A stretch of 64,000 nt of DNA. Source: Halorubrum sp. GN11_10-6_MGM. Its GTDB lineage: Archaea > Halobacteriota > Halobacteria > Halobacteriales > Haloferacaceae. Below the pieces are notes generated by a model. The model did no database searches and was not told where the DNA came from. It was given only the letters and a program-made list of their open reading frames with translations. Shown in pieces: positions 20,199-32,646 of this stretch. Numbering within the stretch: the stretch's first letter is position 1; each line of letters begins with the position of its first letter. The DNA lies in assembly GCF_005435165.1 (NCBI RefSeq), contig NZ_SGUC01000006.1, forward strand, positions 62,001 to 126,000, read 5' to 3'. Position numbers and translations under genes: made by a program.

Positions 20199-21308
20199 TC
20201 AGTCCGCCGCCTCGGAGCGCTCGCCGTCGTCGCCCGCGCCCCGCTGTCGCTCCGGGAGCGGGCCCTCGTACCCCTCGGGGACGTACGGGCACAGCGGGTC
20301 GCTGCCGGTCGGATCGCCCGTCGCGGCGTACGCGCGCGACCGGCTTCCCCCGCAGACGTGACGGTACTCGCAGGCGCCGCACTTCCCCGAGAAGCCGTCC
20401 GGGTCGCGGAGCGACTCGAAGAGGTCGGCGTTCCGGTAGGCGTCGACGACGGACCGCTCGCGGACGTTTCCGGCCGATTCGGGGAGGAAGCCGGACGGGT
20501 ACACCTCGCCGGTGTGGCTGACGAACGCGAACCCGCGCCCGGCCGTGATCCCGCCCCGCCGTCGGGCCGCGCCGTCAGGTGCTCCCTCCTCGGCGCGCTG
20601 GATACCCACCCGGCGGTAGAACGGCGCCTCGGTGGTCTTGACGCCGAACCGCTCCTCGTCGGACACCTCGTGAAGCCACGCCATCACGTCCTCGGCGCGC
20701 TCGGGCGAGACCGGGTCGAGCACGCGGCCGCGGCCCACCGGAACGAGGAAGAAGACGCTCCACAGCACCGCGCCCAGCTCGCGGACGCGGTCGCGGATCG
20801 CGGGGAGGTCGTCGACCGTGTCCGCGCAGACCGTGGTGTTGACCTGAAGCGGGATGCCGGCGTCGCGGGCGGCGCGCGCGGCCGCGACCGTGTCCGCGTA
20901 GCTCTCCTCGCCGCGGAAGGCGTCGTGGCGCTCGCGGGTCGAGCCGTCGAGGCTGAGCGCCATCCGCGCGATCCCCGCGTCGCCGAGGTCGCGGACGCGC
21001 TCCGGCGTGAGCGAGCGGGTCCCGCTCGGCGTGATCGTCATCCGGAGGCCGCGGTCGTCGCCGCGCGCGACCAGCTCTGCGAGGTCGTCGCGGGCGAGCG
21101 GGTCGCCCCCGGAGAGGACCACCAGCTGGCCGTCGCCGAACGCGGCGGCCTCCTCCAGCAGTCGCTTCCCCTCCGCCGTCGTCAGCTCGTCGGGGTGTCG
21201 CCGCGGCCGCGCGTCGGCCCGGCAGTGCCGGCACGCGAGCCCGCAGGCCTGCGTGACCTCCCAGACGAGGACCAGCGGCCGCCGGTCCGTGTCGAGGTCG
21301 TCGAACAT
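20199..21308 (-). CDS. Radical SAM/SPASM protein (TIGR04053-like)
   Basis: A 369-residue radical SAM enzyme. The cluster motif is TQACGLACRHCRADA (Cys22, Cys26, Cys29), followed by VVLSGGDPLARDDL and SLDGSTRERHDAFRG. A C-terminal SPASM-like region has CGACEYRHVCGGSRSRA and a last cysteine in DPLCPYVP, likely binding an auxiliary Fe-S cluster. It resembles the family called TIGR04053, close to heme-pathway radical SAM proteins (AhbC/AhbD, NirJ); which reaction it does is not certain. A copy of the denitrification-region operator lies 44-55 bases upstream, suggesting anaerobic or nitrogen-oxide control. Confidence 0.85.
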   Translation of the reverse strand: MFDDLDTDRRPLVLVWEVTQACGLACRHCRADARPRRHPDELTTAEGKRLLEEAAAFGDGQLVVLSGGDPLARDDLAELVARGDDRGLRMTITPSGTRSLTPERVRDLGDAGIARMALSLDGSTRERHDAFRGEESYADTVAAARAARDAGIPLQVNTTVCADTVDDLPAIRDRVRELGAVLWSVFFLVPVGRGRVLDPVSPERAEDVMAWLHEVSDEERFGVKTTEAPFYRRVGIQRAEEGAPDGAARRRGGITAGRGFAFVSHTGEVYPSGFLPESAGNVRERSVVDAYRNADLFESLRDPDGFSGKCGACEYRHVCGGSRSRAYAATGDPTGSDPLCPYVPEGYEGPLPERQRGAGDDGERSEAAD

Positions 21309-21351: not shown

Positions 21352-21363
21352 CGAACGTGTTCC
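21352..21363 (-). promoter_or_regulatory. CGAAC-N2-GTTCG-type operator, radical SAM promoter
   Basis: CGAACGTGTTCC, 11 of 12 positions matching the inverted repeat seen before nosZ, halocyanin and the cupin gene. It is 44-55 bases from the radical SAM start codon. Confidence 0.55.
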
Positions 21364-21435
21364 CCGGCGGGTGCGGTGCGCGGCGGCCGAGGCGGTTCGA
21401 CGGGTACTTCGTCGGCGGCGGCGACCTCCCCGTGA

Positions 21436-22326
21436 ATGAGTCGCTACCGGACGGCCGGCCGCTTCCTGCTGCTGTGTGCGGTCTGGGGAACGGCGTTCAT
21501 GGCGACGGACGTCGGCCTCGCGGACCTCCCCGCGGTGCCGTTCGCGGCCGTGCGATTCGACGTCGCCGCAGTACTGCTGTTCGGCGCCGTCCTCGCCACC
21601 GGTACGGACGTCCGTCCCCGGACTCGGGACGACTACGTCTACGTGCTGGTCGGCGGCGCCCTCATCATCGGCGCCCACCACGCGTTCCTCTTCGCCGGCC
21701 AGCGGTACGTCACGGGGGGCGTCGCCGCCGTGCTGTTGGGGCTCGTCCCCGTTGTGACGCCCGCGCTCACGCGGCTCGTCTCCACCGACGAGGAGTTCAC
21801 CGCCGCCACCGCGCTCGGCGTCGCGCTCGGGTTCGTCGGCGTCGTCGTCATCGCCGACCCCGACCCCTTGAACCTCGCAGACAGCGTCCTCGGTGTCGCG
21901 CTCGTGCTCGCGTCCGCGCTCGCATTCGCCGTCGCCGCGGTCGTCGCCCACAGCCGCTCGCCGTCGATGCCGTTCCTCTCCACGCAGGCGTGGATGATGG
22001 CGGTCGGCGCGGCCGTACTTCACATCGCCGTGCTCGCGCTCCCCGGCCAGTCGTTCGCGACCGCCGCGTGGACCCCGTCCGCGCTCGGCGCCGTCGCGTA
22101 CCTCTCCGCGGTCGCCGGCGTCGGCGGCTTCCTGCTGTACTTCACGCTCTTAGACGATCTCGGTCCCATCGAGATGAGCTTCATCGAGTACGTGATTCCC
22201 GTGTTCGCGGCGCTGGCGGGCTGGCTCGTGCTCGGACAGGAAGTGACGCCCGCGACCGTCGGGGGGTTCGCCTTCATTCTGGCCGGCTTCGTCGCAGCGA
22301 AGTGGCGGACGCTGCGTGGAGCATAG
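21436..22326 (+). CDS. DMT-family (EamA) transporter
   Basis: A 296-residue membrane protein with about ten hydrophobic helices in two homologous halves. The first EamA repeat starts FLLLCAVWGTAFMATDVGL with PFAAVRFDVAAVLL, and the second ends with EMSFIEYVIPVFAALAGWLV and TPATVGGFAFILAGFV, the standard EamA signatures. It probably exports a metabolite or amino acid; substrate unknown. Divergent from the radical SAM gene across a 127-base spacer. Confidence 0.92.
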   Translation: MSRYRTAGRFLLLCAVWGTAFMATDVGLADLPAVPFAAVRFDVAAVLLFGAVLATGTDVRPRTRDDYVYVLVGGALIIGAHHAFLFAGQRYVTGGVAAVLLGLVPVVTPALTRLVSTDEEFTAATALGVALGFVGVVVIADPDPLNLADSVLGVALVLASALAFAVAAVVAHSRSPSMPFLSTQAWMMAVGAAVLHIAVLALPGQSFATAAWTPSALGAVAYLSAVAGVGGFLLYFTLLDDLGPIEMSFIEYVIPVFAALAGWLVLGQEVTPATVGGFAFILAGFVAAKWRTLRGA

Positions 22327-22343
22327 TTCGTGTCGTAGCCCTG

Positions 22344-23501
22344 CTACCGTCGTACCGGTCGTTCGAGAATGTCGAAGATATCGATTGCTTTGTACTCCCG
22401 ATTTCGCTGTTGGCCAGTCGCTTCGACAACGAGGCCATCCGATTCGAGTTCCCCAATCGCATTGTAGGCGGTCTGTCGACTCACGTCGAATCGGTCCGCG
22501 ATATCGTCCGCGGTGAAGTACGGTAGTTCGAACAGTTCCCGGGCGAGTTTGTGACTCGTCTTTCGGTTCGGATATCGCGCTTCGTACTCTCGCCGGAGTT
22601 CGAGTAATTCGAACGTTCGCTCGTAGGAGTCCTTCGCTTGTTCCTCGATACCCTCGATAAAGAACGCGATCCAATCGCGCCAGCGGCCTTCTTCGCTAAC
22701 CGCACGCATCGTCTCGACGTACTCCCGTTTGTTTCGATTAAAGTAGGCACTCGGATAGAGGTACGGATCTGACAGATAGCCGGCCTCGTGTAGCTGGAGA
22801 ACGATTAAGATGCGTCCGAGACGACCGTTACCGTCCGAGCAGGGGTGAACCGTTTCAAACTGATAGTGAGTGATCGCAAGGTCGACCAGTGGATGATACT
22901 CACCGTCCATCTGAATATATGCTTCAAGCGAATCCATGAGTTCCGGGACGCGGTCTGCCGGTGGTGGAACAAACGGGGACTGCCCCCGACGCGGCGACGG
23001 AATATGAACGTCATCATCTCGCCACTCACCAACGTCGTCGCCCTCGTTCCGAACTCCTTCGAGTAGTATTTCGTGGAGCGATTTGAGCAACCCGACCGAA
23101 ATTGATCCACCTGTTTTAATCGCGTCAAATCCGTCCCTGAGTGCGCGCTCGGCGTTGAGAACTTCCTGTAAGTCGCGGCTCACGCCCCCGGAATCGCCGG
23201 ATTTCTGGCGTGTGTGATATGCGTAGACTTCGTCCATTTCGACGTCTGCGCCCTCAATTTCCGCCGTTTCGACTGCTTCGAGTCGAAGGAGGGACGTATA
23301 CAGTACCGGTGCGAAATCGACCGTCGGGCTAATCCCGTCGATACGTCCGAGTTGGAACATCGCATCCGATATCGTCGACGCGAGATCCTCGTCGATCTCG
23401 ATCGGCGACGACAGGGGCAGCTTCTCTGGAATATAGTAGGGGTGTGGATGCGACTGTTGGTAGTGCCCTGGCGCATCTGGTGGTAAATCCTCTACTCTCA
23501 T
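22344..23501 (-). CDS. Fic-domain protein with inhibitory motif and winged helix
   Basis: A 385-residue Fic protein. The catalytic loop is HPCSDGNGRLGR (219-230), an intact HxFx(D/E)GNGRxxR except for Cys in place of Phe. The inhibitory helix motif TAEIEG (79-84) matches (S/T)xxxE(G/N), so regulation is built in (class II). A C-terminal winged helix (FTADDIADRFDVSRQTAYNA) could bind DNA. Such enzymes AMPylate proteins, possibly their own partner or a host target. The gene is clearly richer in A+T than its neighbours, suggesting transfer. A TATA-like GGTTAAGG lies 25-32 bases upstream. Confidence 0.93.
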   Translation of the reverse strand: MRVEDLPPDAPGHYQQSHPHPYYIPEKLPLSSPIEIDEDLASTISDAMFQLGRIDGISPTVDFAPVLYTSLLRLEAVETAEIEGADVEMDEVYAYHTRQKSGDSGGVSRDLQEVLNAERALRDGFDAIKTGGSISVGLLKSLHEILLEGVRNEGDDVGEWRDDDVHIPSPRRGQSPFVPPPADRVPELMDSLEAYIQMDGEYHPLVDLAITHYQFETVHPCSDGNGRLGRILIVLQLHEAGYLSDPYLYPSAYFNRNKREYVETMRAVSEEGRWRDWIAFFIEGIEEQAKDSYERTFELLELRREYEARYPNRKTSHKLARELFELPYFTADDIADRFDVSRQTAYNAIGELESDGLVVEATGQQRNREYKAIDIFDILERPVRR

Positions 23502-23595
23502 TTTGAATTAGTTGGTGTCTACCGCGCCTTAACCATATTGGATATAAACAGATTTGGACACTGAGGGTTAAAGAGCGTTCTAAATCAAATTCTAC

Positions 23596-23961
23596 TCAGG
23601 TCGCGGGCACGTCGCCCGCGGTCGGCTCACCCTCGCCGGTCCGCTCGTCCGAAACGGCCGTTTCGCCGTCGGCCGGCCAGATCGCCGTCACGACCGCGTC
23701 GGTCGCGTCGGTCTCGACGGTCGCGTACGCGTACCCGCGGTCGTCGAGCCGCGGGAAGAGGAACTGGGGTGTCCGATCGTTGTACTGGATCAACACGTCG
23801 TCGTCGCCGAGCGCTTCGACGCGTTCGAGCGTCTCGCGAAGCGGCTTCGGCGGGCCGAGGTTTCGCACGTCGAGGGAGACGGTCTCCCCGTCCGTCGGCG
23901 CATCCGTCCGCTCGGCCACCGCCCGTTCGACCGCCGTCGGATCGCCGGGTTCGGAGCTCAT
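23596..23961 (-). CDS. DUF2249 protein
   Basis: A 121-residue protein with one DUF2249 domain: SLDVRNLGPPKPLRETLERV, then DVLIQYNDRTPQFLFPRLDD and RGYAYATVETD. DUF2249 proteins cluster with nitrogen-oxide and terminal-oxidase genes and are thought to help with metal or electron-transfer steps; no reaction is assigned. It is divergent from an HTH-10 regulator, and the 103-base spacer carries the region's operator. A second DUF2249 domain occurs in the cupin fusion near halocyanin. Confidence 0.85.
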   Translation of the reverse strand: MSSEPGDPTAVERAVAERTDAPTDGETVSLDVRNLGPPKPLRETLERVEALGDDDVLIQYNDRTPQFLFPRLDDRGYAYATVETDATDAVVTAIWPADGETAVSDERTGEGEPTAGDVPAT

Positions 23962-23999
23962 ACCCGACGGTACGGGCCCGGTCCCCGGGTCGTTTGTGA

Positions 24000-24011
24000 C
24001 GAACATGTTCT
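24000..24011. promoter_or_regulatory. CGAAC-N2-GTTCG-type operator between DUF2249 and HTH-10 genes
   Basis: CGAACATGTTCT, 11 of 12 matches to the perfect palindrome near halocyanin. It is 39 bases from the DUF2249 start and 54 bases from the regulator start, so it could act on both, including autoregulation. Confidence 0.6.
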
Positions 24012-24064
24012 GGCGGCTCGTGCCGAGCCGAAGGTACTTCCACCCCCGCGCCGAACGGGCGCGC

Positions 24065-24748
24065 ATGGCACAGGCACGCCTCCGCGTGGAGATCCCGGAC
24101 GGCCCGTGGGTCGGCGACGTCTCGCGGGAGTTCCCGGACGCGCGGTTCCAGGTACTGACCGCGACGCCCGACGACGGCGCGGGGTTCGCGCTGGTCCGGA
24201 TCACCGCGGACGACACGGACCCGATCCTCGACGCGATCGACGACCACGACACGATCACCCACTCCTCGGTGATGGCCGAGGACGATGGGATGATAACCGT
24301 TCAGGTCGAGGCGCTCGTCCCGCTGTTACAGACGGTCGCGCGCCGGGCGGGCGTCCCGATCGAGATGCCCGTCGAGATCCGCGACGGCGTCGCGCGCGTC
24401 GACGTCACGGGCGACCACGGGCGCGTCGCGGAGTTCGGCGACGCCCTCCGAGACGTGGGGGCCGACTTCGAGGTCGAGTACGTCCAGCAGCGCATCAATC
24501 CCGGCGGGTCGCTCACCGAGCGCCAGCGCGAGGTCCTCTTCGAGGCGGTCGACCGCGGCTACTACGACGTGCCCCGGGAGACCACGCTCACCGAGGTGGC
24601 CGACCACGTCGGCATCGCGAAGTCCACGTGTAGCGAGGTGCTCCAGCGCGTCGAGCGCACCATCGTCCGGGAGTTCGTCGACGACCTCCCGCGCCGCCCC
24701 GTCGACTTCGAGTCGCCCGAGGACGACGGGATCGAGCGGATTCAGTGA
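24065..24748 (+). CDS. HTH-10 transcription regulator of the denitrification region
   Basis: A 227-residue bacterio-opsin-activator-type regulator. The N-terminal 150 residues hold a tandem strand-helix ligand domain (MAQARLRVEIPDGPWVGDVS). The C-terminal HTH-10 domain begins LTERQREVLFEAVDRGYYDV and continues TLTEVADHVGIAKSTCSEVLQRVE. It has only one cysteine, so it is not the cysteine-rich oxygen-sensing type described for haloarchaeal NarO. Position, next to DUF2249 and upstream of the nos genes, and an operator in its own promoter make it the best candidate for the regulon's controller. The ATG at 24065 is preferred because the protein fold starts there. Confidence 0.88.
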   Translation: MAQARLRVEIPDGPWVGDVSREFPDARFQVLTATPDDGAGFALVRITADDTDPILDAIDDHDTITHSSVMAEDDGMITVQVEALVPLLQTVARRAGVPIEMPVEIRDGVARVDVTGDHGRVAEFGDALRDVGADFEVEYVQQRINPGGSLTERQREVLFEAVDRGYYDVPRETTLTEVADHVGIAKSTCSEVLQRVERTIVREFVDDLPRRPVDFESPEDDGIERIQ

Positions 24749-24773
24749 CCGGCTGACTTCGGATTCTTCCTGG

Positions 24774-25004
24774 TCACTCGGCCTCCTCCGGCTCGGTCCG
24801 GAATCGCCCGGAGAAGAGCTGTACGCTGACCGCGATCACACCCACGATTCCGGTCGCGCGGGCGACGGTCGGTATCAGGGTCTCGTAGCCGCGGACCGCC
24901 ACGGCGATGTCGCCGAGCGCCGCGACTCCGACTCCGAGCAGCAACACGACGGTCTGTAGGAGACGGCGGATCGATTCGAGTCGTTCGTCCGTTTCGGAGG
25001 GCAT
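24774..25004 (-). CDS. Small two-helix membrane protein
   Basis: A 76-residue protein with two hydrophobic segments (VVLLLGVGVAALGDIAVAV and GIVGVIAVSVQLF) separated by a short basic loop, and an acidic C-terminus. No family recognised. It follows nosY by 67 bases on the same strand and occupies the place where other nos clusters often have nosL, but it has no NosL lipobox or copper-binding motif. Confidence 0.55.
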   Translation of the reverse strand: MPSETDERLESIRRLLQTVVLLLGVGVAALGDIAVAVRGYETLIPTVARATGIVGVIAVSVQLFSGRFRTEPEEAE

Positions 25005-25071
25005 CGCCGTCAGTTCCGGCCGTTAGTCCCATAGTTCCCACGGAGTCGAAACCGGAAGCGCCCGGAGGCGA

Positions 25072-26061
25072 TCAGAGCCGACGGCGACGCACGAGCACCC
25101 CCGCGACCGCGACGGGGACGAGACACCACGCGACGAGCGCGAGCGACAGCGAGCCCGCCGAGAGCCCGCTCCCGGCGAGGACCGCGGTGAACCCGCCGCC
25201 CGCGGTGGTGCCGAGCCCGCTCAGGACGAGCACGCGGAACGCGCTCACCGGGTTCGCGTACACCAGCGCCGACAGCGCGGCGTCCGGCAGCTCGAACGCC
25301 GCGACGACGCCGAGCGCGAGGAGGTCGTGGACGAGCACGAACCACACCCACGCGAGCAGCGCCGCGCCCAGCGCGTGAGTCTTCTCGCGCGCGACCGTCG
25401 ACAGCAGCAGCGCGACCCCGAGGAATGCGGCGCCGACCGCGACGGTTCCGCCGAGGAACCCGAGGAAGGCGGACAGCGAGCCGACGCCGAACTCGCGGAC
25501 GATCAGGGCGCCGCTGAAGCCGAACCCGAGCAGCGTCGCGCCCGCGAGCACCGCCAGCCGGCCGAGGTACGTCCCGACGACGACCTCGCTCCGGCGGACC
25601 GGCAGCGAGAACACGACCGCGAGCCACCCCTCGTCCTCGCGGCCGACGATCGCGTCGTAGCCGAGCGCGAGCGCCGCCAGTGGAACGAGGTAGGCGGCGA
25701 GGCTCGTCAGCGACGCGACGACGCGCTCGGCGCCACCCGGACCGACCGCGGAGCCGCTGAACGTCAGCATCACCCCGCCGAAGACGACGAACAGCCCAGT
25801 CAGCGCGAGCGCCCACCGGCTCCGAACCGCGAGCCGGTACTCCGTGACGGCGACGACGAAGACCTGGCGGAGTGCGTCGCGGGCGCCGTCGTTCGTCTCG
25901 GTCTCGACCGCGTCGGCGGTCGCCGCCGTCGCCGTCGACTCGGCCGGCCCGCCGTCCGGCTCCCGGTCGAGCGTCCCGACCGCGGCCGCGGCGTCCGGGT
26001 GTCCCCCGTCGGGGCGGGTGTTCCCCGCCTCCTTCCCGGACCGCTCGCTCGGGTCGCTCAT
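25072..26061 (-). CDS. nosY: ABC transporter permease for N2O reductase maturation
   Basis: A 329-residue ABC-2-type permease. An extended acidic N-terminus (about 60 residues) precedes six hydrophobic segments; the cytoplasmic motif YDAIVGREDEGWLAVVFSLP with VRRSEVVVGTYLGR is typical of NosY and related permeases. With NosF it forms the ABC transporter that, with NosD, supplies sulfur or another factor for the CuZ cluster of NosZ. Its ATG overlaps the nosF stop codon (ATGA), so the genes are co-translated. Confidence 0.88.
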   Translation of the reverse strand: MSDPSERSGKEAGNTRPDGGHPDAAAAVGTLDREPDGGPAESTATAATADAVETETNDGARDALRQVFVVAVTEYRLAVRSRWALALTGLFVVFGGVMLTFSGSAVGPGGAERVVASLTSLAAYLVPLAALALGYDAIVGREDEGWLAVVFSLPVRRSEVVVGTYLGRLAVLAGATLLGFGFSGALIVREFGVGSLSAFLGFLGGTVAVGAAFLGVALLLSTVAREKTHALGAALLAWVWFVLVHDLLALGVVAAFELPDAALSALVYANPVSAFRVLVLSGLGTTAGGGFTAVLAGSGLSAGSLSLALVAWCLVPVAVAGVLVRRRRL

Positions 26062-26864
26062 GGCGCCACCTCCTCGGCGTCGACCTCGCCGCGGCGCGCG
26101 GCGTCGTCGCCGACCGCCTCGCGGAACGCCGCGCGCAGCCCGTCGCGCTCGCGGCCGGACCCGGTCGCCGCTTCCCCGTCCCGGCCGGCGAGGGGATCGG
26201 CGGCGGCGAGCTCGTCGACGGGGCCCGCCGCGCGCACCCGCCCGTCGTGGAGGACGGCCGCGCGGTCGCAGAGGCGCTCAACCTCCCCGAGCACGTGCGA
26301 GCAGAACACCACTGTCGCGTCGGTCTCGGCCGCGATCTCCTCCACGATGGCGTGGAACTCGTCGACGCCGCGGGGGTCGAGCCCGGCGGTCGGCTCGTCC
26401 AAGACGAGCACGTCGGGATCGGGCAACAGGACGGTCGCCAGCCCGAGCCGCCGCCCCATCCCGTTCGAGTAGCCCGAGACGCGGCGGTCCGCCTCGGCCG
26501 GAGTCAGGCCCACTCGCTCGATCGCGTCGGCGATCCGCCCGTCAGTCGGGAGGCCGCGGATCGCGCGGTGAACGCCGAGGACTTCCCACCCGGTGAGCCC
26601 GTCGGGGAAGCCGACGTGTTCCGGGAGGTAGCCGACGCGCTCGCGGACCCGGCGCCCGTCCTCCGTCACGTCGGTCCCGCCGACGCTGACGGACCCGGCG
26701 TCCGGCCGGTCGTGGCCGACGAGCAGCCGGAACAGCGTCGACTTGCCGGCCCCGTTGGTGCCGATGATCCCGAACGTCGAGCCGCTCGGGACGGACAGCG
26801 AGAGCCCGTCGAGGGCGGTCACGTCCCCGTACGTCTTCCGCACGTCGGTCGCGTCGATTCTCAT
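26058..26864 (-). CDS. nosF: ABC transporter ATPase for N2O reductase maturation
   Basis: A 268-residue ATPase. Walker A IGTNGAGKST (34-43), signature region VSGYSNGMGRRLGLA and Walker B VLVLDEPTAGLD are intact, and the H-loop is in VVFCSHVLGEVERL. It energises the NosFY transporter on the cytoplasmic face. The start overlaps the nosD stop, and its own end overlaps the nosY start. A C-terminal extension of about 60 residues rich in Asp, Glu and Arg follows the ATPase core. Confidence 0.93.
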   Translation of the reverse strand: MRIDATDVRKTYGDVTALDGLSLSVPSGSTFGIIGTNGAGKSTLFRLLVGHDRPDAGSVSVGGTDVTEDGRRVRERVGYLPEHVGFPDGLTGWEVLGVHRAIRGLPTDGRIADAIERVGLTPAEADRRVSGYSNGMGRRLGLATVLLPDPDVLVLDEPTAGLDPRGVDEFHAIVEEIAAETDATVVFCSHVLGEVERLCDRAAVLHDGRVRAAGPVDELAAADPLAGRDGEAATGSGRERDGLRAAFREAVGDDAARRGEVDAEEVAP

Positions 26865-28348
26865 GGTGTGTCCTCCGTGTCCGCGGTTCGGTTCGCGGCG
26901 CCCGGGCGGGTCGCGGCCGCCTCGTACGCGCGCCAGTCGTGGTTCGGCTCGACGAGCGGGCGGCGGTCGACGACGCCCGGCGTCTCGACCACCGGGAAGG
27001 AGCTCTCGGCGAGCCGCACCGCCTCGAACGCCGGGCTGTTCGCGAACGCCGCAGCCTGCGGGTGCTCGGCGACGAGGTTCTCGACGATCCCGATCGGCCG
27101 GTGGCGGATCTCGCTCACGCCGTCGCCGTCGCGGTCGGCCACCCGCGCGCCGGACCAGTAGTTGCCGCGGTCGCTGCCGTTCCACGCGACGAGCGAGTTC
27201 CGCGCCGTCTTGGCGGCCCGCCCGTTCCGGACGAAGCTGTTCCCGGCGACGGCCGCGTTGTTGCTTTCGGCGGCGCTGTGGACCCCGATCCCGTTGCGGT
27301 AGATCAGGTTGTCGACGAGCCGGTTCCCCTGCGCGTTGTAGAGGTAGAGCCCGTTGCGGTTCGCGACGAGGTGATTGCCGGCGATCGTCGACTCCTCGAT
27401 GTCCTTCGCCAAGATCCCATGGCCGCTCGTGCCGCCGTTGCGGAGGGCGGTGTTGTTCCGGACCGTCAGCCCCTCGCTCACCATCAGCGCGTAGCCGACG
27501 CCGTTGTCGGCCGCGACGTTGTCGACGAGGCGGTTGTCGTCCGAGTACATGTAGTGGACGCCGTACCGCGCGTTGCGTATCGTGTTGTTCTCGGCGAGCA
27601 CGTCCGTCGCCCACGAGAAGTAGATCCCGTCGCGGGTGTTCGCGATCTCGCTGTCGCGGACGACGGTCCCGCTCGTCTCGAACAGGTGGATCCCGTTGCC
27701 GCGGTCGGTCCGGGGGTACACGTCCTCTCGACCGTCGATCCGTACGTCCGCGATCGCGGCGTCGTCGACGCCGTCGACCCAGATCCCGTACGCGGTGTCG
27801 GTGATCCGGACCGTCTCGATCCGCGCGCCCGCGCCGTCCACGAACACCCCCGCGTCCTCGGCGCCGAGGTCGCTGCCGGAGCCGCGGACCCACACGCCGG
27901 AGACGGTGACGTTCTCCCCGGAGATCGTGAGCACGCGACCCTCGCCGCCGCCGTCGATCACCGCGCCGTCCTCGCCCGCGACGAGCCGCAGACCGTCGAC
28001 GCTGGCGTTCACGCGCTCGTCGAACCGGCCGTCGAGGACGACCGTCCCGCCGGGCTCGGCGGCGTCGACCGCGGCCTGCGCCGACGCGAACGACTCCCCG
28101 TCGACGGTGGCGGTCCCGTCGCGCTCCGGCGCGGTGACGCCCGTCGCCGCGAAGTCGGTCGGGATATCGACCCCGGAAGCGGCCGGGGCGCCACCCGTCG
28201 CGTCGCTGCCCGTCGCAGCGACGTTCGCGGCGTCGGCGCTCGCGGCGCCGGACCCGGCGACCGGGAGCGCGACGCCGAGCGCGACCGCGACGGCCGCAGC
28301 GACGCAGGCGGCCGCGAGGAAGCCGGCTTCGAGGCGGTCATCCGACAT
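26861..28348 (-). CDS. nosD: NosD, right-handed beta-helix copper-site maturation protein
   Basis: A 495-residue exported protein. The N-terminal hydrophobic stretch (about residues 8-30, AACVAAAVAVALGVALPVAG) is a signal or anchor. The rest is a run of parallel beta-helix (CASH) repeats full of N-x-x-x-N-x-[IV] turns, for example GNHLVANRNGLYLYNAQGNR and NNTIRNARYGVHYMYSDDNR. NosD acts outside the membrane with NosFY to build the CuZ centre. Start MSDDRLEAG is chosen; an ATG two codons earlier is also possible. It overlaps the preceding gene by 11 bases. Confidence 0.93.
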   Translation of the reverse strand: MSDDRLEAGFLAAACVAAAVAVALGVALPVAGSGAASADAANVAATGSDATGGAPAASGVDIPTDFAATGVTAPERDGTATVDGESFASAQAAVDAAEPGGTVVLDGRFDERVNASVDGLRLVAGEDGAVIDGGGEGRVLTISGENVTVSGVWVRGSGSDLGAEDAGVFVDGAGARIETVRITDTAYGIWVDGVDDAAIADVRIDGREDVYPRTDRGNGIHLFETSGTVVRDSEIANTRDGIYFSWATDVLAENNTIRNARYGVHYMYSDDNRLVDNVAADNGVGYALMVSEGLTVRNNTALRNGGTSGHGILAKDIEESTIAGNHLVANRNGLYLYNAQGNRLVDNLIYRNGIGVHSAAESNNAAVAGNSFVRNGRAAKTARNSLVAWNGSDRGNYWSGARVADRDGDGVSEIRHRPIGIVENLVAEHPQAAAFANSPAFEAVRLAESSFPVVETPGVVDRRPLVEPNHDWRAYEAAATRPGAANRTADTEDTP

Positions 28349-29090
28349 GGTCATCCCCTCCGAGATCGCGGTCTCCGTCGGCGCCGTCGTCGCCGGCGAC
28401 GCGCTCGCGGATCTCGCCGGGCAGGGCGCGGGCCAGTCTCGGGAGCTCGTCGACGGTCGCTTCGAGATCGCGGGCGAGGTACGCGGTCGCGAGCAGCAGG
28501 ACCGCGACGACGGTCATGTACCCGCCGGGACCGAACCACGCGAACCCGCTTATGTTGGCGACCTCGTACGGACCGAGCAGCGGCGGCGTGAACGACTCGA
28601 TACCGCGGAGCGGCGCGTCCGGGTCCAGCGAGTGGCCGGCCTGGTGGAGCCGGTACTGGATGAACGCGAACATCCCCACGAAGACGGTGATCGTCCCGAC
28701 GAGCTGCGCCGTGAGGCCGGCCTTCAGCTTGCGGGCCGTGGGCGCGAACGCGACGAACGCGCCCGTCAGGGCGAGCCCAGCGAACACGACCGGGCCGAGC
28801 AGCCACTCGGGGACGTCGATCGCGGCCTCGCTGACGGCGTAGTTCGGATCGACGAACACCGGGTCGGGGTAGTGGAACCCGGCGTACTTGTTGAGCCCCT
28901 GTACCTCGGCGAAGTCGCCGCCCAGACGCGGGTAGGCGTACAGCTCGATGAGCAGCTCCTGACCGGGGTACTGCGGCGCCGTCAGGGTGATCTTCCACAT
29001 CGGGACCAGCAGCGCCCCGACGAGCAGCGCCGCCGCTGCCAGCGGGAGCGCGCGTCGGATCTCGGTCAGCCGCGTGAGCGACGAGGACAT
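28338..29090 (-). CDS. NosB-like membrane protein of the nos operon
   Basis: A 250-residue membrane protein with about five hydrophobic segments, lying directly after nosZ (4-base gap). The motif PMWKITLTAPQYPGQELLIE with GLNKYAGFHYPDP right after the first helix resembles the membrane protein NosB found next to nosZ in clade II (atypical) nos clusters. NosB is needed in some bacteria but its chemistry is unsettled. The extracellular loop is rich in aromatic residues. Assignment to NosB is by motif memory and position, not by a search. Confidence 0.7.
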   Translation of the reverse strand: MSSSLTRLTEIRRALPLAAAALLVGALLVPMWKITLTAPQYPGQELLIELYAYPRLGGDFAEVQGLNKYAGFHYPDPVFVDPNYAVSEAAIDVPEWLLGPVVFAGLALTGAFVAFAPTARKLKAGLTAQLVGTITVFVGMFAFIQYRLHQAGHSLDPDAPLRGIESFTPPLLGPYEVANISGFAWFGPGGYMTVVAVLLLATAYLARDLEATVDELPRLARALPGEIRERVAGDDGADGDRDLGGDDHVG

Positions 29091-29094
29091 GGCG

Positions 29095-31017
29095 TTACTC
29101 CTCCGGTTTGACGATGAGCCGCGAGCGCATTTCCAAGTGCAGCGCGCTACAGAAGTGCGCGCAGTAGATCCAGTAGACGCCCGGCTCGTCGGCGGTGAAC
29201 GTCGCCTTGCGCGTCTCCTGCGGCGCGACCCGCATGTGGACGTCGTGGTCCGGGATCGCCACCGAGTGGAGCATGTCGCTCGTGGTCTCGATGTTCGTCA
29301 CCTGCATCTCGATCTCGTCGCCCTCCTGGACGACCATCTCCTGGAACCCGTAGTGGTTCCGGGTCGAGTACATCTCGATCTCGACGCGGTCGTCGGCGAC
29401 CCGCTCCATCGTCTCCTCGCCCTCGGCGGTGTAGTCGAGTTCGAGATCCTCGGGGTCGTACGTCTTCGCCGGGTCGATCTTCGACTTGTGGCAGATCGAG
29501 GCGTCGTGCGGCTCCGCCTGCGCGGGCGAGTCCTTCACCAGCTCCATCCCGTTCTCGTCGTCGCCGATGTAGATCAGCTGGTCGTTCTCCGGGTGCTGCG
29601 GGCCGACCGGGAGGAACCGGTCCTTCGAGAGCTTGTTGAGCGAGACGAGCCAGTCGCCGGCCGGGTCCTCCGTGTACGACTCCGCGGCGATGAGGTGGCC
29701 GGGGTTGTAGTGGACGTCGATCTTCTCGATCACCGGGCTCTCGGAGCGCGCGTCGGCCTCGACCGCCTCCTCGATGTCCCACTTGACGACCTGCGAGTCG
29801 ATGAACAGCGTCGTGTACGCGTGGCCGCGGCCGTCGTACGCCGTGTGGAGCGGGCCGAGCCCGAGCTTCGGCTGGCCGACGATGGCGTCGGCGGGGTCGT
29901 CGACCTCGTCGATCGCGTCGATGTCGATCACCGACGCGGTCGGGTCGAGCTTCCCGCTGACGATCACGTACTCGTTGTCCGGGGTGACGCTGACCCCGTG
30001 CGGGCTCTTCGGCGTCGGGATGTAGTGGACGATCGGCTCGTCGCCCTGGTTGAGCGGGCTGTCCTTCCGCCCGTCGACGACCGGGACCTCGTTTATCGTC
30101 TCGTAGTTGCCGGCCTCGACGGCCGCCTCGATGCGCGGGATGTCGAACGCCTTCACGTCGTCACGGTCGGCGCGCGTCATCCCGGACTCCGTCGCGGCCT
30201 CCTCGGAGTTGTAGGCGCTGGTGAAGAAGTACCGGCCCTCCTTGCTCCCGTCGCCGTTGTCCATGTTCCCGTCGATGAGGACCTCCCACTCGACGTTCAT
30301 CGTCTCGGGGTTGATCGCGGCGAGGACGGAGCCGTACTCGTCGGGGTCTTCGAGGTTCCCGGTCCCGTTGTTGGGGATCGGCGTCCGGAACTCGCCGACG
30401 CCGAAGATGAGGTCGGTGTCGGGCAGCTGCGCGCAGGCGCCGTGAGTCCCCTGCTGGTTGGGGATGTCGACGATCGCGTCCGTCTCGAAGTACGTCAGGT
30501 CGATCCGGGCCATCCGCCCGTTCGCCTTGTCGTTGACGTACGCGAACCGGCCGTCGTAGTCGCCGTCGGTCTGACTGATCCGCGGGTGGTGGGTGTCGCC
30601 CCACGTGTAGCCGCCGGCGTCTTCGAGCATCTGCTTGCTCTCGTCGTCGAACCCGTACCCCCGGCTGGCGTCGTAGTTGAACACCGGGATCCGGATGAGT
30701 TCCCGCATCGACGGGAGCCCGTACACGCGGACGTCGCCCGCCTGCCCGCCGGAGAGGAGCGCGTAGTACTCGTCGTGTTCGCCCGGGGGAACGGAGTTGT
30801 CGACCCCGCTCGCCGAGGCCGTCCCCTGGACCCCGTCGTCCTCGCTCAGCAGGCTGGTACAGCCCGCCAGCCCGCTGAGGCCCCCGGCGGCCGCGCCGGC
30901 CTTCATGAAGTCGCGGCGACGGACGCCGGGGAGCAGCGAGTCGAAGCCGTCCGTCGAGCCGGTCGTCTGGTCGCCCGATTCTCCCGCGTCCGTCTGCCGC
31001 TGTGTGTCGTTCGACAT
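29095..31017 (-). CDS. nosZ: Nitrous-oxide reductase
   Basis: A 640-residue multicopper enzyme reducing N2O to N2. The N-terminus has a twin-arginine motif RRRDFMK (33-39) and a lipobox LAGC (50-53), so it is exported folded by Tat and lipid-anchored outside. The beta-propeller supplies CuZ histidines in DTHHPRIS, SPHGVSVTP, GPLHTAYDGRGHAYTT, NPGHLIAA and EPHDASI. The C-terminal cupredoxin domain holds CuA: YCAHFCSALHLEM gives Cys619, Cys623, His627 and Met630. First gene of nosZ-nosB-like-nosD-nosF-nosY. It has its own TATA box and an upstream regulon operator. Confidence 0.98.
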   Translation of the reverse strand: MSNDTQRQTDAGESGDQTTGSTDGFDSLLPGVRRRDFMKAGAAAGGLSGLAGCTSLLSEDDGVQGTASASGVDNSVPPGEHDEYYALLSGGQAGDVRVYGLPSMRELIRIPVFNYDASRGYGFDDESKQMLEDAGGYTWGDTHHPRISQTDGDYDGRFAYVNDKANGRMARIDLTYFETDAIVDIPNQQGTHGACAQLPDTDLIFGVGEFRTPIPNNGTGNLEDPDEYGSVLAAINPETMNVEWEVLIDGNMDNGDGSKEGRYFFTSAYNSEEAATESGMTRADRDDVKAFDIPRIEAAVEAGNYETINEVPVVDGRKDSPLNQGDEPIVHYIPTPKSPHGVSVTPDNEYVIVSGKLDPTASVIDIDAIDEVDDPADAIVGQPKLGLGPLHTAYDGRGHAYTTLFIDSQVVKWDIEEAVEADARSESPVIEKIDVHYNPGHLIAAESYTEDPAGDWLVSLNKLSKDRFLPVGPQHPENDQLIYIGDDENGMELVKDSPAQAEPHDASICHKSKIDPAKTYDPEDLELDYTAEGEETMERVADDRVEIEMYSTRNHYGFQEMVVQEGDEIEMQVTNIETTSDMLHSVAIPDHDVHMRVAPQETRKATFTADEPGVYWIYCAHFCSALHLEMRSRLIVKPEE

Positions 31018-31071
31018 GGGTGGATCCGCGAGCGGCGGTTCTCTCGCGACATGTGGCGGTTGCGGGCTGCC

Positions 31072-31079
31072 GTATATAT
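31072..31079 (-). promoter_or_regulatory. TATA box of the nos operon
   Basis: The reverse strand reads ATATATAC, about 55-62 bases before the nosZ ATG, giving a short 5' leader of roughly 30 bases. Confidence 0.65.
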
Positions 31080-31114
31080 CCCCTCAAGCGGCTTGCTGTG
31101 CGGCTAGAAGCGCG

Positions 31115-31126
31115 CGAACACGTTCG
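31115..31126 (-). promoter_or_regulatory. CGAAC-N2-GTTCG operator upstream of nosZ
   Basis: CGAACACGTTCG; both five-base half sites are perfect. It starts 36 bases beyond the TATA box, almost the same offset as at the halocyanin promoter, which suggests an activator binding a fixed distance upstream. Confidence 0.7.
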
Positions 31127-31227
31127 GACATCGGCCCCCGCGTTTCAGGGACGTGAGAACGCGGTCCGTTCCCTGTTCGAAGAATCCGCCCGAAAAGAGT
31201 CAGTCTCGCCGGGCCAGCGTCCCGGGT

Positions 31228-31352
31228 GCGGTTCAGCCGATCTCGCGTCGTCGCCGCGGTTCAGCCGATCTCGCGTCGTCGCCGCGGTTCAACCGGTCTC
31301 TCGTCGTCGCCGCGGTTCAACCGGTCTCTCGTCGTCGCGGTTCAGCCGCGTC
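31228..31352. repeat. 28-bp tandem repeat, about 4.5 copies
   Basis: Three full 28-bp units (31228-31255, 31256-31283, 31284-31311), a 25-bp unit (31312-31336) and a partial unit (31337-31352). Each starts GCGGTTCA and most end CGTCGTCGCC. Units 1-2 and units 3-4 form two identical pairs that differ at three or four positions, so the array grew by duplication. No spacers, hence not CRISPR. It fills the space between the halocyanin stop codon and the nosZ promoter. Confidence 0.85.
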
Positions 31353-31358
31353 GCGGCG

Positions 31359-31910
31359 TCATCGAACGACGACGGCGCCCTTCATGCCGACCGAGGAGTG
31401 GGGCGTACAGGCGTACTCGTGGACTCCCGTCTCCTCGAACGTGTACTCGAAGGTGTGGCCGCCCTCGGTGACCGTCTCGCTCTCGAAGTCGCCCGACTCG
31501 GCCGAGACGTTGTGGCCGCCGCCCTCGCCGGTCCACTCCCAGACGACGGTCGTCCCGGAACTCACCGCCACCGCGGCCGGGCCGAACGAGAGGCCGTCGC
31601 CGGCCCCCACCGAGACCGTCACCTCGTCCTGTCCGGTGGCGTCGACCGTCTGTTCGTAGTTGTTCGCGCCCTCCAGCCAGCCGCCGTAGTCCGGCTCCTC
31701 GCTGAGGTACTGGGTGTCGCCGCCGCTCCCGCCGTCGCCGCCGTCTGAACCGTCCGATCCGCCGCCGTCGCTTCCGTCGCTTCCGTCCGAGCCGTCTCCG
31801 CCGCTTCCGCCGTCGCCGCCCCCGGAACAGCCGGCGAGCAGGAGCGTCGCGCCCGCGGCGGTCGTCGCCTGTACGAATCGTCGCCGATCGAGTGTCGTGT
31901 CGTCCGTCAT
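31359..31910 (-). CDS. Halocyanin (type 1 copper lipoprotein)
   Basis: A 183-residue exported blue copper protein. The N-terminal RRRFVQAT is a Tat motif and LAGC (25-28) the lipobox. A glycine, aspartate and serine-rich linker (29-65) tethers the cupredoxin domain. Copper ligands are His133 (GGGHNV), Cys168, His171 and Met176 (CTPHSSVGM). Halocyanin is the small membrane-bound electron carrier that can feed nitrogen-oxide reductases such as NosZ, which is encoded next door on the same strand. It has its own TATA-like box (GTTACAAC, about 31936-31943) and a perfect operator upstream. Confidence 0.95.
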   Translation of the reverse strand: MTDDTTLDRRRFVQATTAAGATLLLAGCSGGGDGGSGGDGSDGSDGSDGGGSDGSDGGDGGSGGDTQYLSEEPDYGGWLEGANNYEQTVDATGQDEVTVSVGAGDGLSFGPAAVAVSSGTTVVWEWTGEGGGHNVSAESGDFESETVTEGGHTFEYTFEETGVHEYACTPHSSVGMKGAVVVR

Positions 31911-31977
31911 GTGGTCGGTCGTTGGTGGGTGGTAGTTGTAACGCCCTGCGCGCCGCCCAGTCGCACGGGAATCCCGA

Positions 31978-31989
31978 CGAACATGTTCG
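31978..31989 (-). promoter_or_regulatory. CGAACATGTTCG operator upstream of halocyanin
   Basis: A perfect 12-bp palindrome, 68-79 bases before the halocyanin ATG and 35 bases beyond its TATA-like box. It is the best copy of the shared motif. Confidence 0.7.
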
Positions 31990-32052
31990 GCGATCGCGAC
32001 CGCCGAGCGCCGCCGGTCGCCCGCGCGACACCGCCCTCACGGCCCCGGACGC

Positions 32053-32595
32053 CTACGCTTCTCTCCGCGGTGCCAACACGATCAGCGCGGTCGCGTCCTC
32101 GCGCGCGGTCGGTTCCACGGTCCGCTCGCCGTCGAAGCGGAGCAGCTCGCCCGCCTCGACGCGGTGGGTCTCGCCGTCGAGCGCGACGTCGAAGGTGCCC
32201 TCCAGCGCGTGGAACAGGACCGTCCTGTCCGGGTGGTCGTGTTCGGCGACGCTCTCGCCCGCGGCCAGCGAGAGCCGGACCGTCTTCGGCTCAGCGCCCG
32301 GGAACGCCGACGCGTGCGGCTCGCCGTCGAGGTCGTCGAGCCGGACGGTCTCCGGCCCGGACCCGGACTCCGCCTTCGGCAGCTCGGCGACGAACCGCTC
32401 GGGGCCCTCGCGCTCGACGGCGTAGTTCTCGTCGTCGAACGCGGGCACCTCCGCCGACAGCTCGTAGTAGAGCGGCTTCGGGTCGTGGTCGTTGACGATC
32501 GTGAGCGACTCGCCCGGATCGAGGTCGGCGAACGCGTCGTGTATCCGGTCGTGTCGCTCGTTCGGCGGGATCTCTCTGACGTCGAGTTCGGACAT
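32053..32595 (-). CDS. DUF2249-cupin fusion protein
   Basis: A 180-residue protein. Residues about 1-75 are a DUF2249 domain (MSELDVREIPPNERHDRIHD, SLTIVNDHDPKPLYYEL). Residues about 100-175 are a single cupin barrel (SVAEHDHPDRTVLFHALEGT, then ELLRFDG) with histidines placed to bind a metal. DUF2249 proteins accompany denitrification genes; the cupin half suggests metal or small-molecule binding. A regulon operator lies 40 bases upstream, so it is probably induced with nosZ and halocyanin. Confidence 0.85.
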   Translation of the reverse strand: MSELDVREIPPNERHDRIHDAFADLDPGESLTIVNDHDPKPLYYELSAEVPAFDDENYAVEREGPERFVAELPKAESGSGPETVRLDDLDGEPHASAFPGAEPKTVRLSLAAGESVAEHDHPDRTVLFHALEGTFDVALDGETHRVEAGELLRFDGERTVEPTAREDATALIVLAPRREA

Positions 32596-32634
32596 CGCGT
32601 GCCCATCGACGCCGCGCCCGCATGTCGAGCGGCG

Positions 32635-32646
32635 CGAACACGTTCG
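32635..32646 (-). promoter_or_regulatory. CGAAC-N2-GTTCG operator upstream of the DUF2249-cupin gene
   Basis: CGAACACGTTCG, identical to the site before nosZ, 40-51 bases from the start codon. Confidence 0.65.

Follow-up and report, generated by a model that had tools for sequence, protein, structure and literature searches.

A semi-palindromic operator of nosZ, halocyanin and DUF2249 genes in Halorubrum sp. GN11_10-6_MGM and an HTH-10 protein as its candidate regulator

In Haloferax mediterranei, the nar, nir, nor and nos promoters contain a 12-bp semi-palindrome, CGAAYATDKTYG (PMC10062603). The site in the nos promoter is CGAACATGTTCG, most mutations of which lower anaerobic activity, and the activity of the nor promoter is likewise reduced by mutation of the motif (PMC10062603). 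RNA sequencing links the motif to DUF2249 genes, a halocyanin-containing cluster and the Bat-like gene E6P09_00735; the regulator that binds it is given as unknown (PMC11218638). We describe here an operator of this type in Halorubrum sp. GN11_10-6_MGM, on the basis of a stretch of 64 000 nucleotides with a nos cluster (contig NZ_SGUC01000006.1, positions 62,001 to 126,000; hereafter the window), of the genome assembly and of related genomes. The operator is already published and the core claim is not new, because both the motif and the mutagenesis of promoters are on record for H. mediterranei. The comparative work adds the intergenic share of the sites, their fixed spacing, the presence of a site in the promoter of an HTH-10 gene together with the co-occurrence of that gene and the regulon, and the membership of the families TIGR04053 and TIGR03995.

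The original prediction, made from the letters of the window, listed five intergenic inverted repeats of the form CGAAC-N2-GTTCG. All five are present, at 31978, 31115, 32635, 24000 and 21352, and all lie between genes (table 1). The repeats at 24000 and 21352 are imperfect, yet they look functional like the others: the first is retained 50–53 bp upstream of the HTH-10 gene in seven of nine close Halorubrum orthologues, and the second is conserved 42–44 bp upstream of TIGR04053 in nine orthologues. The nosZ site is conserved 96–100 bp before the start codon in Halorubrum and relatives. The proposed target genes (halocyanin, nosZ, the DUF2249-cupin gene, the DUF2249/HTH-10 pair and a radical SAM gene) belong to the families named for them, as checked against NCBIfam and Pfam. 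A distance of 35–36 bases between site and TATA box was correctly described for nosZ and halocyanin, in which the box begins about 35 bases past the operator, but it is one of two promoter layouts and not a rule. This layout is absent from the sites at 24000, 21352 and 32635, where the start codons of the DUF2249, radical SAM and DUF2249-cupin genes are 38, 43 and 39 bp away. The proposal that the site serves an activator agrees with the effect of mutations on the identical CGAACATGTTCG of the H. mediterranei nos promoter (PMC10062603).

Table 1. Operators, promoter elements and genes of the window, and AT/AC/GT-centre sites elsewhere in the genome (C numbers are contigs).
Feature	Position	Strand	Remarks
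TIGR04053 radical SAM/SPASM protein	20199..21308	-	479.8 bits (cut-off 395)
Radical SAM operator CGAACGTGTTCC	21352..21363	-	43 bp upstream of TIGR04053 gene; one mismatch
DUF2249 protein	23596..23961	-	PF10006; start at 23961
Divergent DUF2249/HTH-10 operator CGAACATGTTCT	24000..24011	.	38 bp to DUF2249, 53 bp to HTH-10; one mismatch
HTH-10 regulator with BAT domain, candidate regulator	24065..24748	+	PF04967 and PF15915; one cysteine
ATP-binding cassette (ABC) permease, NosY position	25072..26061	-	gene order of annotated nos clusters
ABC transporter ATPase, NosF position	26058..26864	-	gene order of annotated nos clusters; ABC ATPase motifs in translation
nosD	26861..28354	-	TIGR04247 above cut-off
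Conserved membrane protein after nosZ	28338..29090	-	position as in annotated nos clusters; no match in family search
nosZ, TAT-dependent nitrous-oxide reductase	29095..31017	-	TIGR04244 above cut-off
nosZ TATA box GATATATAC	31072..31080	-	sequence; conserved
nosZ second palindrome, TTCTAG-N5-CAGCAA	31093..31109	-	10/12; between operator and TATA box; orthologues TTCCTA-N5-CAGCAA
nosZ operator CGAACACGTTCG	31115..31126	-	on minus strand CGAACGTGTTCG; 97 bp upstream of nosZ start
Halocyanin	31359..31910	-	TIGR03102 above cut-off
Halocyanin TATA box GTTACAAC, probable	31935..31942	-	sequence; position kept in orthologues
Halocyanin second palindrome, degenerate	31955..31971	-	sequence match, 9/12 to TTCYYR-N5-YRRGAA
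Halocyanin operator CGAACATGTTCG	31978..31989	-	perfect palindrome; 67 bp upstream of start; identical to published H. mediterranei nos and nor motif
DUF2249-cupin fusion protein	32053..32595	-	PF10006 and PF07883
DUF2249-cupin operator CGAACACGTTCG	32635..32646	-	on minus strand CGAACGTGTTCG; 39 bp upstream of gene, 39–41 bp in orthologues
Genome site	C117:33626		between ThiS-like gene and norZ
Genome site	C124:159501		perfect operator; between DUF2249 gene and TIGR03995 gene
Genome site	C117:6769		between 2Fe-2S ferredoxin and cheF
Genome site	C98:48383		before small winged-helix gene

The genome (3.32 Mb in 200 contigs) was studied by pattern and family searches and by inspection of the stretches around the matches, with genes outside the window called by a simple codon model. 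The exact pattern CGAACNNGTTCG is found at 50 sites, and the reversed control pattern at none. Seven of these sites have AT, AC or GT at the centre and all seven are intergenic; three of them, those of halocyanin (31978), nosZ (31115) and the DUF2249-cupin gene (32635), lie within 1.6 kb in the window. Only 11 of the 32 examined sites with other centres are intergenic. We therefore define the operator as CGAAC-(AT/AC/GT)-GTTCG and consider the remaining exact matches to be largely background. The comparison with chance thus bears out the prediction for these three centres; matches with other centres are mostly inside genes, and the freely variable N2 centre of the prediction was rejected. Matches with one mismatch number 25 in the window (8.8 expected from shuffled sequence), and many of them are coding, so that they were rejected as evidence standing alone.

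The motif CGAAYRYRTTCG was then scored in 79 loci retrieved with an alignment of 23 HTH-10 homologues as query; many of them are from Halorubrum, an indication that the window, too, belongs to this genus. There are 172 sites in these loci, 162 of them intergenic. Sixty further loci from other genomes contain 135 sites (121 intergenic); many of these loci were picked for an exact palindrome, which inflates the number of sites but not their intergenic share or spacing. For the 139 loci together, 283 of 307 sites are intergenic, and the reversed control gave no match in either set. The recurrent targets are DUF2249 genes, the HTH-10 gene itself, the ThiS-like gene with norZ, halocyanin, multicopper oxidases, nosZ, a COX1-like membrane protein, a copper P-type ATPase, heme o synthase and iron–sulfur proteins. 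The motif hardly varies among them.

In our opinion, it is extremely improbable that the repeats are a product of chance, favoured by the base composition and codon use of haloarchaea. The half-sites CGAAC and GTTCG are indeed common in coding DNA, many of the one-mismatch matches of the window are in genes, and so are most of the exact sites with other centres. Against this stand the strictly intergenic position of the seven AT/AC/GT sites, the fixed distances to the start codon, the conservation in orthologues, the empty reversed controls and the published mutagenesis (PMC10062603). For the three perfect sites of the window, chance is already refuted.

The commonest distance between site and start codon is 38 bp, with further peaks at 66–71 and 96–99 bp. 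Promoters of the 38-bp class have AT-rich positions 5–12 bases past the site, matching the TATA box expected for a leaderless gene. In the longer class (66–99 bp), the TATA box is about 35 bases past the operator, and a second palindrome, TTCYYR-N5-YRRGAA, often begins five or six bases after the operator. At these offsets, 28 flanks match it at 11/12 or better, compared with 0.013 per offset in shuffled sequences. Among held-out flanks, from which those similar to the first set were removed, there are 18 matches of at least 9/12 at offsets 5–6, with about 1.8 expected; by class, the second palindrome is present in 17 of 51 longer and 6 of 65 short held-out promoters. No clear second element emerged from a general information profile of the longer class; it became visible only when the palindrome was scored at fixed offsets.

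From these data, we judge it rather probable that CGAAC-(AT/AC/GT)-GTTCG is the site of a dimeric activator of a haloarchaeal low-oxygen regulon for nitric oxide (NO) and nitrous oxide (N2O), and that the role of activator falls to the HTH-10/BAT product of the 24065 gene and, outside this genome, to its orthologues. Two promoter layouts are proposed. At the DUF2249 genes, the radical SAM gene and the gene divergent from norZ, the activator would sit next to the TATA box on its upstream side, at a site some 38 bp from the start codon of a presumably leaderless gene. At nosZ and halocyanin its site would be more distant, with about 35 bp to the TATA box downstream; this gap often contains the second palindrome, to which another protein or a second dimer probably binds. 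The regulon would comprise Nor and Nos, electron-transfer genes, TIGR03995, a putative radical-SAM-modified peptide, and TIGR04053, its likely maturase. We see the arguments as evenly balanced for the more complete proposal, namely that an autoregulated, NarO-independent HTH-10 activator, encoded at a divergent DUF2249 promoter, controls this regulon, TIGR03995/TIGR04053 included, via composite promoters made of the operator and the second palindrome.

The denitrification regulon of the original prediction is retained in part. An operator of the published type is located upstream of nosZ, halocyanin, norZ and the DUF2249 genes in this genome, and all three DUF2249 genes are preceded by one, if the 24000 site is counted. 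In the search of the 200-contig assembly, nirK and narG gave no match above the family cut-offs. For this reason nar and nir are not targets in this genome, and the regulon corresponds to the NO/N2O half of the pathway. Either the denitrification pathway is truncated here or nirK and narG are missing from the assembly. Operator-like sites were also observed near the cheF and ferredoxin genes (C117:6769) and before a gene for a methyl-accepting chemotaxis protein (C120:1792), hinting that taxis genes may answer to the same switch. Near the C117:6769 operator, a TIGR04347 pseudo-SAM/SPASM protein and a candidate peptide of the Htur_1727 family adjoin an HTH-10 gene (L002:4361-6042, contig C117).

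The gene of the CGCGG candidate peptide TIGR03995 (C124:159151-159396; L004:9149-9415, minus strand; 136.4 bits) is divergent from a DUF2249 gene and on a different contig from its likely maturase TIGR04053, which is in the window. We searched 119 genomes for TIGR03995 and took the 30 best loci regardless of the motif. The 260 bp upstream of the gene contain an exact site in 19 of 30 cases and a site with at most one mismatch in 28 (0.04 and 0.09 expected per gene). TIGR04053 genes have a site of their own in 16 of 30 cases; of the 14 without one, 12 lie immediately behind TIGR03995 in the same orientation and two immediately behind a DUF2249 gene. Judged by this sequence evidence, the TIGR04053 gene and its candidate peptide partner appear to belong to the regulon, modification of the peptide being putative. 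No paper linking the two families was found in a literature search. If the assignment is correct, the peptide system becomes tied to denitrification or NO handling, and shared regulation with Nor and Nos gives the candidate modified peptide and the DUF2249 proteins a functional context of low oxygen, NO and N2O.

The protein encoded at 24065 matches HTH_10 (PF04967, 66.9 bits) and BAT (PF15915, 29.4 bits with a cut-off of 25.8); the Pfam search gave no PAS or GAF match. Its sole cysteine, C189, is inside the HTH, and the N-terminal CXnCXCX7C motif, reportedly defined by Hattori et al. 2016, is absent. Because this motif is lacking, the protein is not of the NarO type: identity with NarO was rejected, and with it the NarO-type label used in the original prediction. 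As the local candidate regulator it is strengthened by the site in its own divergent promoter and by its co-occurrence with regulon genes. Since the gene shares the divergent DUF2249 promoter and carries the same site, it is probably autoregulated. Among the 79 HTH-10 loci, an exact site is present within 200 bp upstream of the HTH-10 gene in 27 (0.02 expected per locus), and in 37 if one mismatch is allowed. Only five changes are needed to explain the distribution of the site on the HTH-10 tree. In Natrinema, HTH-10 promoters contain three operator-like sites, 84, 38 and 1 bp from the start codon (L183, L186, L187, L191, L200, L201, L204 and L205); the nearest of them overlaps the start region and would fit autorepression at high levels.

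The exact palindrome is present in 59 of 91 genomes with an HTH-10 homologue (E below about 1e-30) and in 6 of 28 without one, and DUF2249 and TIGR03995, with both of which HTH-10 co-occurs, are found together in 72 of the 119 genomes and alone in four and three, respectively, with 40 genomes having neither; these are all raw genome counts in which shared ancestry is ignored. That limit is one of several points that weigh against the proposed activator and its promoters. Within this HTH-10 family, the genes of several Halorubrum clades lack a site in the promoter. The second palindromes of the window are imperfect (10/12 for nosZ and 9/12 for halocyanin), and no clear TATA box is apparent in the promoter at 32635. 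NarO, a different HTH-10 protein, is moreover genetically required for denitrification in Haloferax volcanii, and the work showing this also reported a similar motif (cited in PMC10062603).

This last point favours another reading, with a NarO/DmsR-type HTH-10 protein at the operator; this protein would be encoded elsewhere in the genome and have the oxygen-sensing motif CXnCXCX7C, and the 24065 protein would be only another target or a modulator. A similar motif has been reported from several genera, Halorubrum among them, in the promoters of denitrification genes (cited in PMC10062603), and two other HTH-10 proteins of this genome have the cysteine motif: C190:101623, recognized by pattern, and C135:62799, recognized by cysteine spacing. 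However, the motif is functional in H. mediterranei, from which NarO homologues are reportedly absent (PMC10062603). The C190 gene is located just before a gene resembling dimethyl sulfoxide reductase, which suggests that its product is DmsR, and no operator is present in the upstream sequence examined for either gene. We regard this reading as unlikely.

In many held-out loci, a small winged-helix gene of the HTH_20 type lies downstream of the operator; it recurs in other genera (L222, L223, L227, L233, L254-L259, L262 and others). The HTH_20 protein is a possible second regulator and a candidate binder of the second palindrome. We consider it quite improbable that the operator itself belongs to a regulator of another family, such as HTH_20, with the HTH-10 gene an ordinary member of the regulon. 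A site in a promoter does mark plain targets as much as autoregulated regulators, but it is the HTH-10 family that follows the regulon genes across genomes and whose genes recur as regulator genes at the divergent DUF2249 promoter; no HTH_20 gene was seen adjoining a site in this genome. With the HTH-10 activator preferred, the comparative data narrow the regulator of the published motif to one testable protein, distinct from NarO.

The window also contains a Fic/DOC gene in an AT-richer stretch (22344-23501), flanked by an EamA transporter gene on one side and by the DUF2249/HTH-10 pair on the other. The distance between the radical SAM and HTH-10 genes is smaller in close relatives, which suggests an insertion.

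The operator described here and the H. mediterranei motif are the same 12-bp semi-palindrome CGAAYATDKTYG, to which the 31978 site is a full match and from which those at 31115 and 32635 differ only at the centre. The targets are alike: nos, nor, halocyanin, DUF2249 and a Bat-like HTH-10 gene. The distance to the start is 66–79 bp in H. mediterranei, compared with 67 bp for halocyanin and 97 bp for nosZ here. In the Halorubrum genome, by contrast, AC and GT centres are as common as AT, nar and nir genes are absent from the targets, and most targets of the DUF2249 type have their site 38–43 bp from the start. Neither the second palindrome nor TIGR03995/TIGR04053 targets were found in the searched passages of PMC10062603 and PMC11218638. 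NarO of H. volcanii, the regulator of anaerobic denitrification genes, and the 24065 protein are both members of the HTH-10 family; unlike NarO, the latter has one cysteine and no CXnCXCX7C, and its gene is not beside nar (no narG above the cut-off). A further counterpart is E6P09_00735 of H. mediterranei, which is situated in a denitrification cluster and has been proposed as a regulator, the likeness being one of domains and context. Both proteins consist of HTH_10 and BAT without PAS or GAF, and each gene has the motif in its own promoter (for the 24065 gene, the 24000 site with its one mismatch); their neighbours differ, nirK and nor being beside E6P09_00735 and nos beside the 24065 gene.

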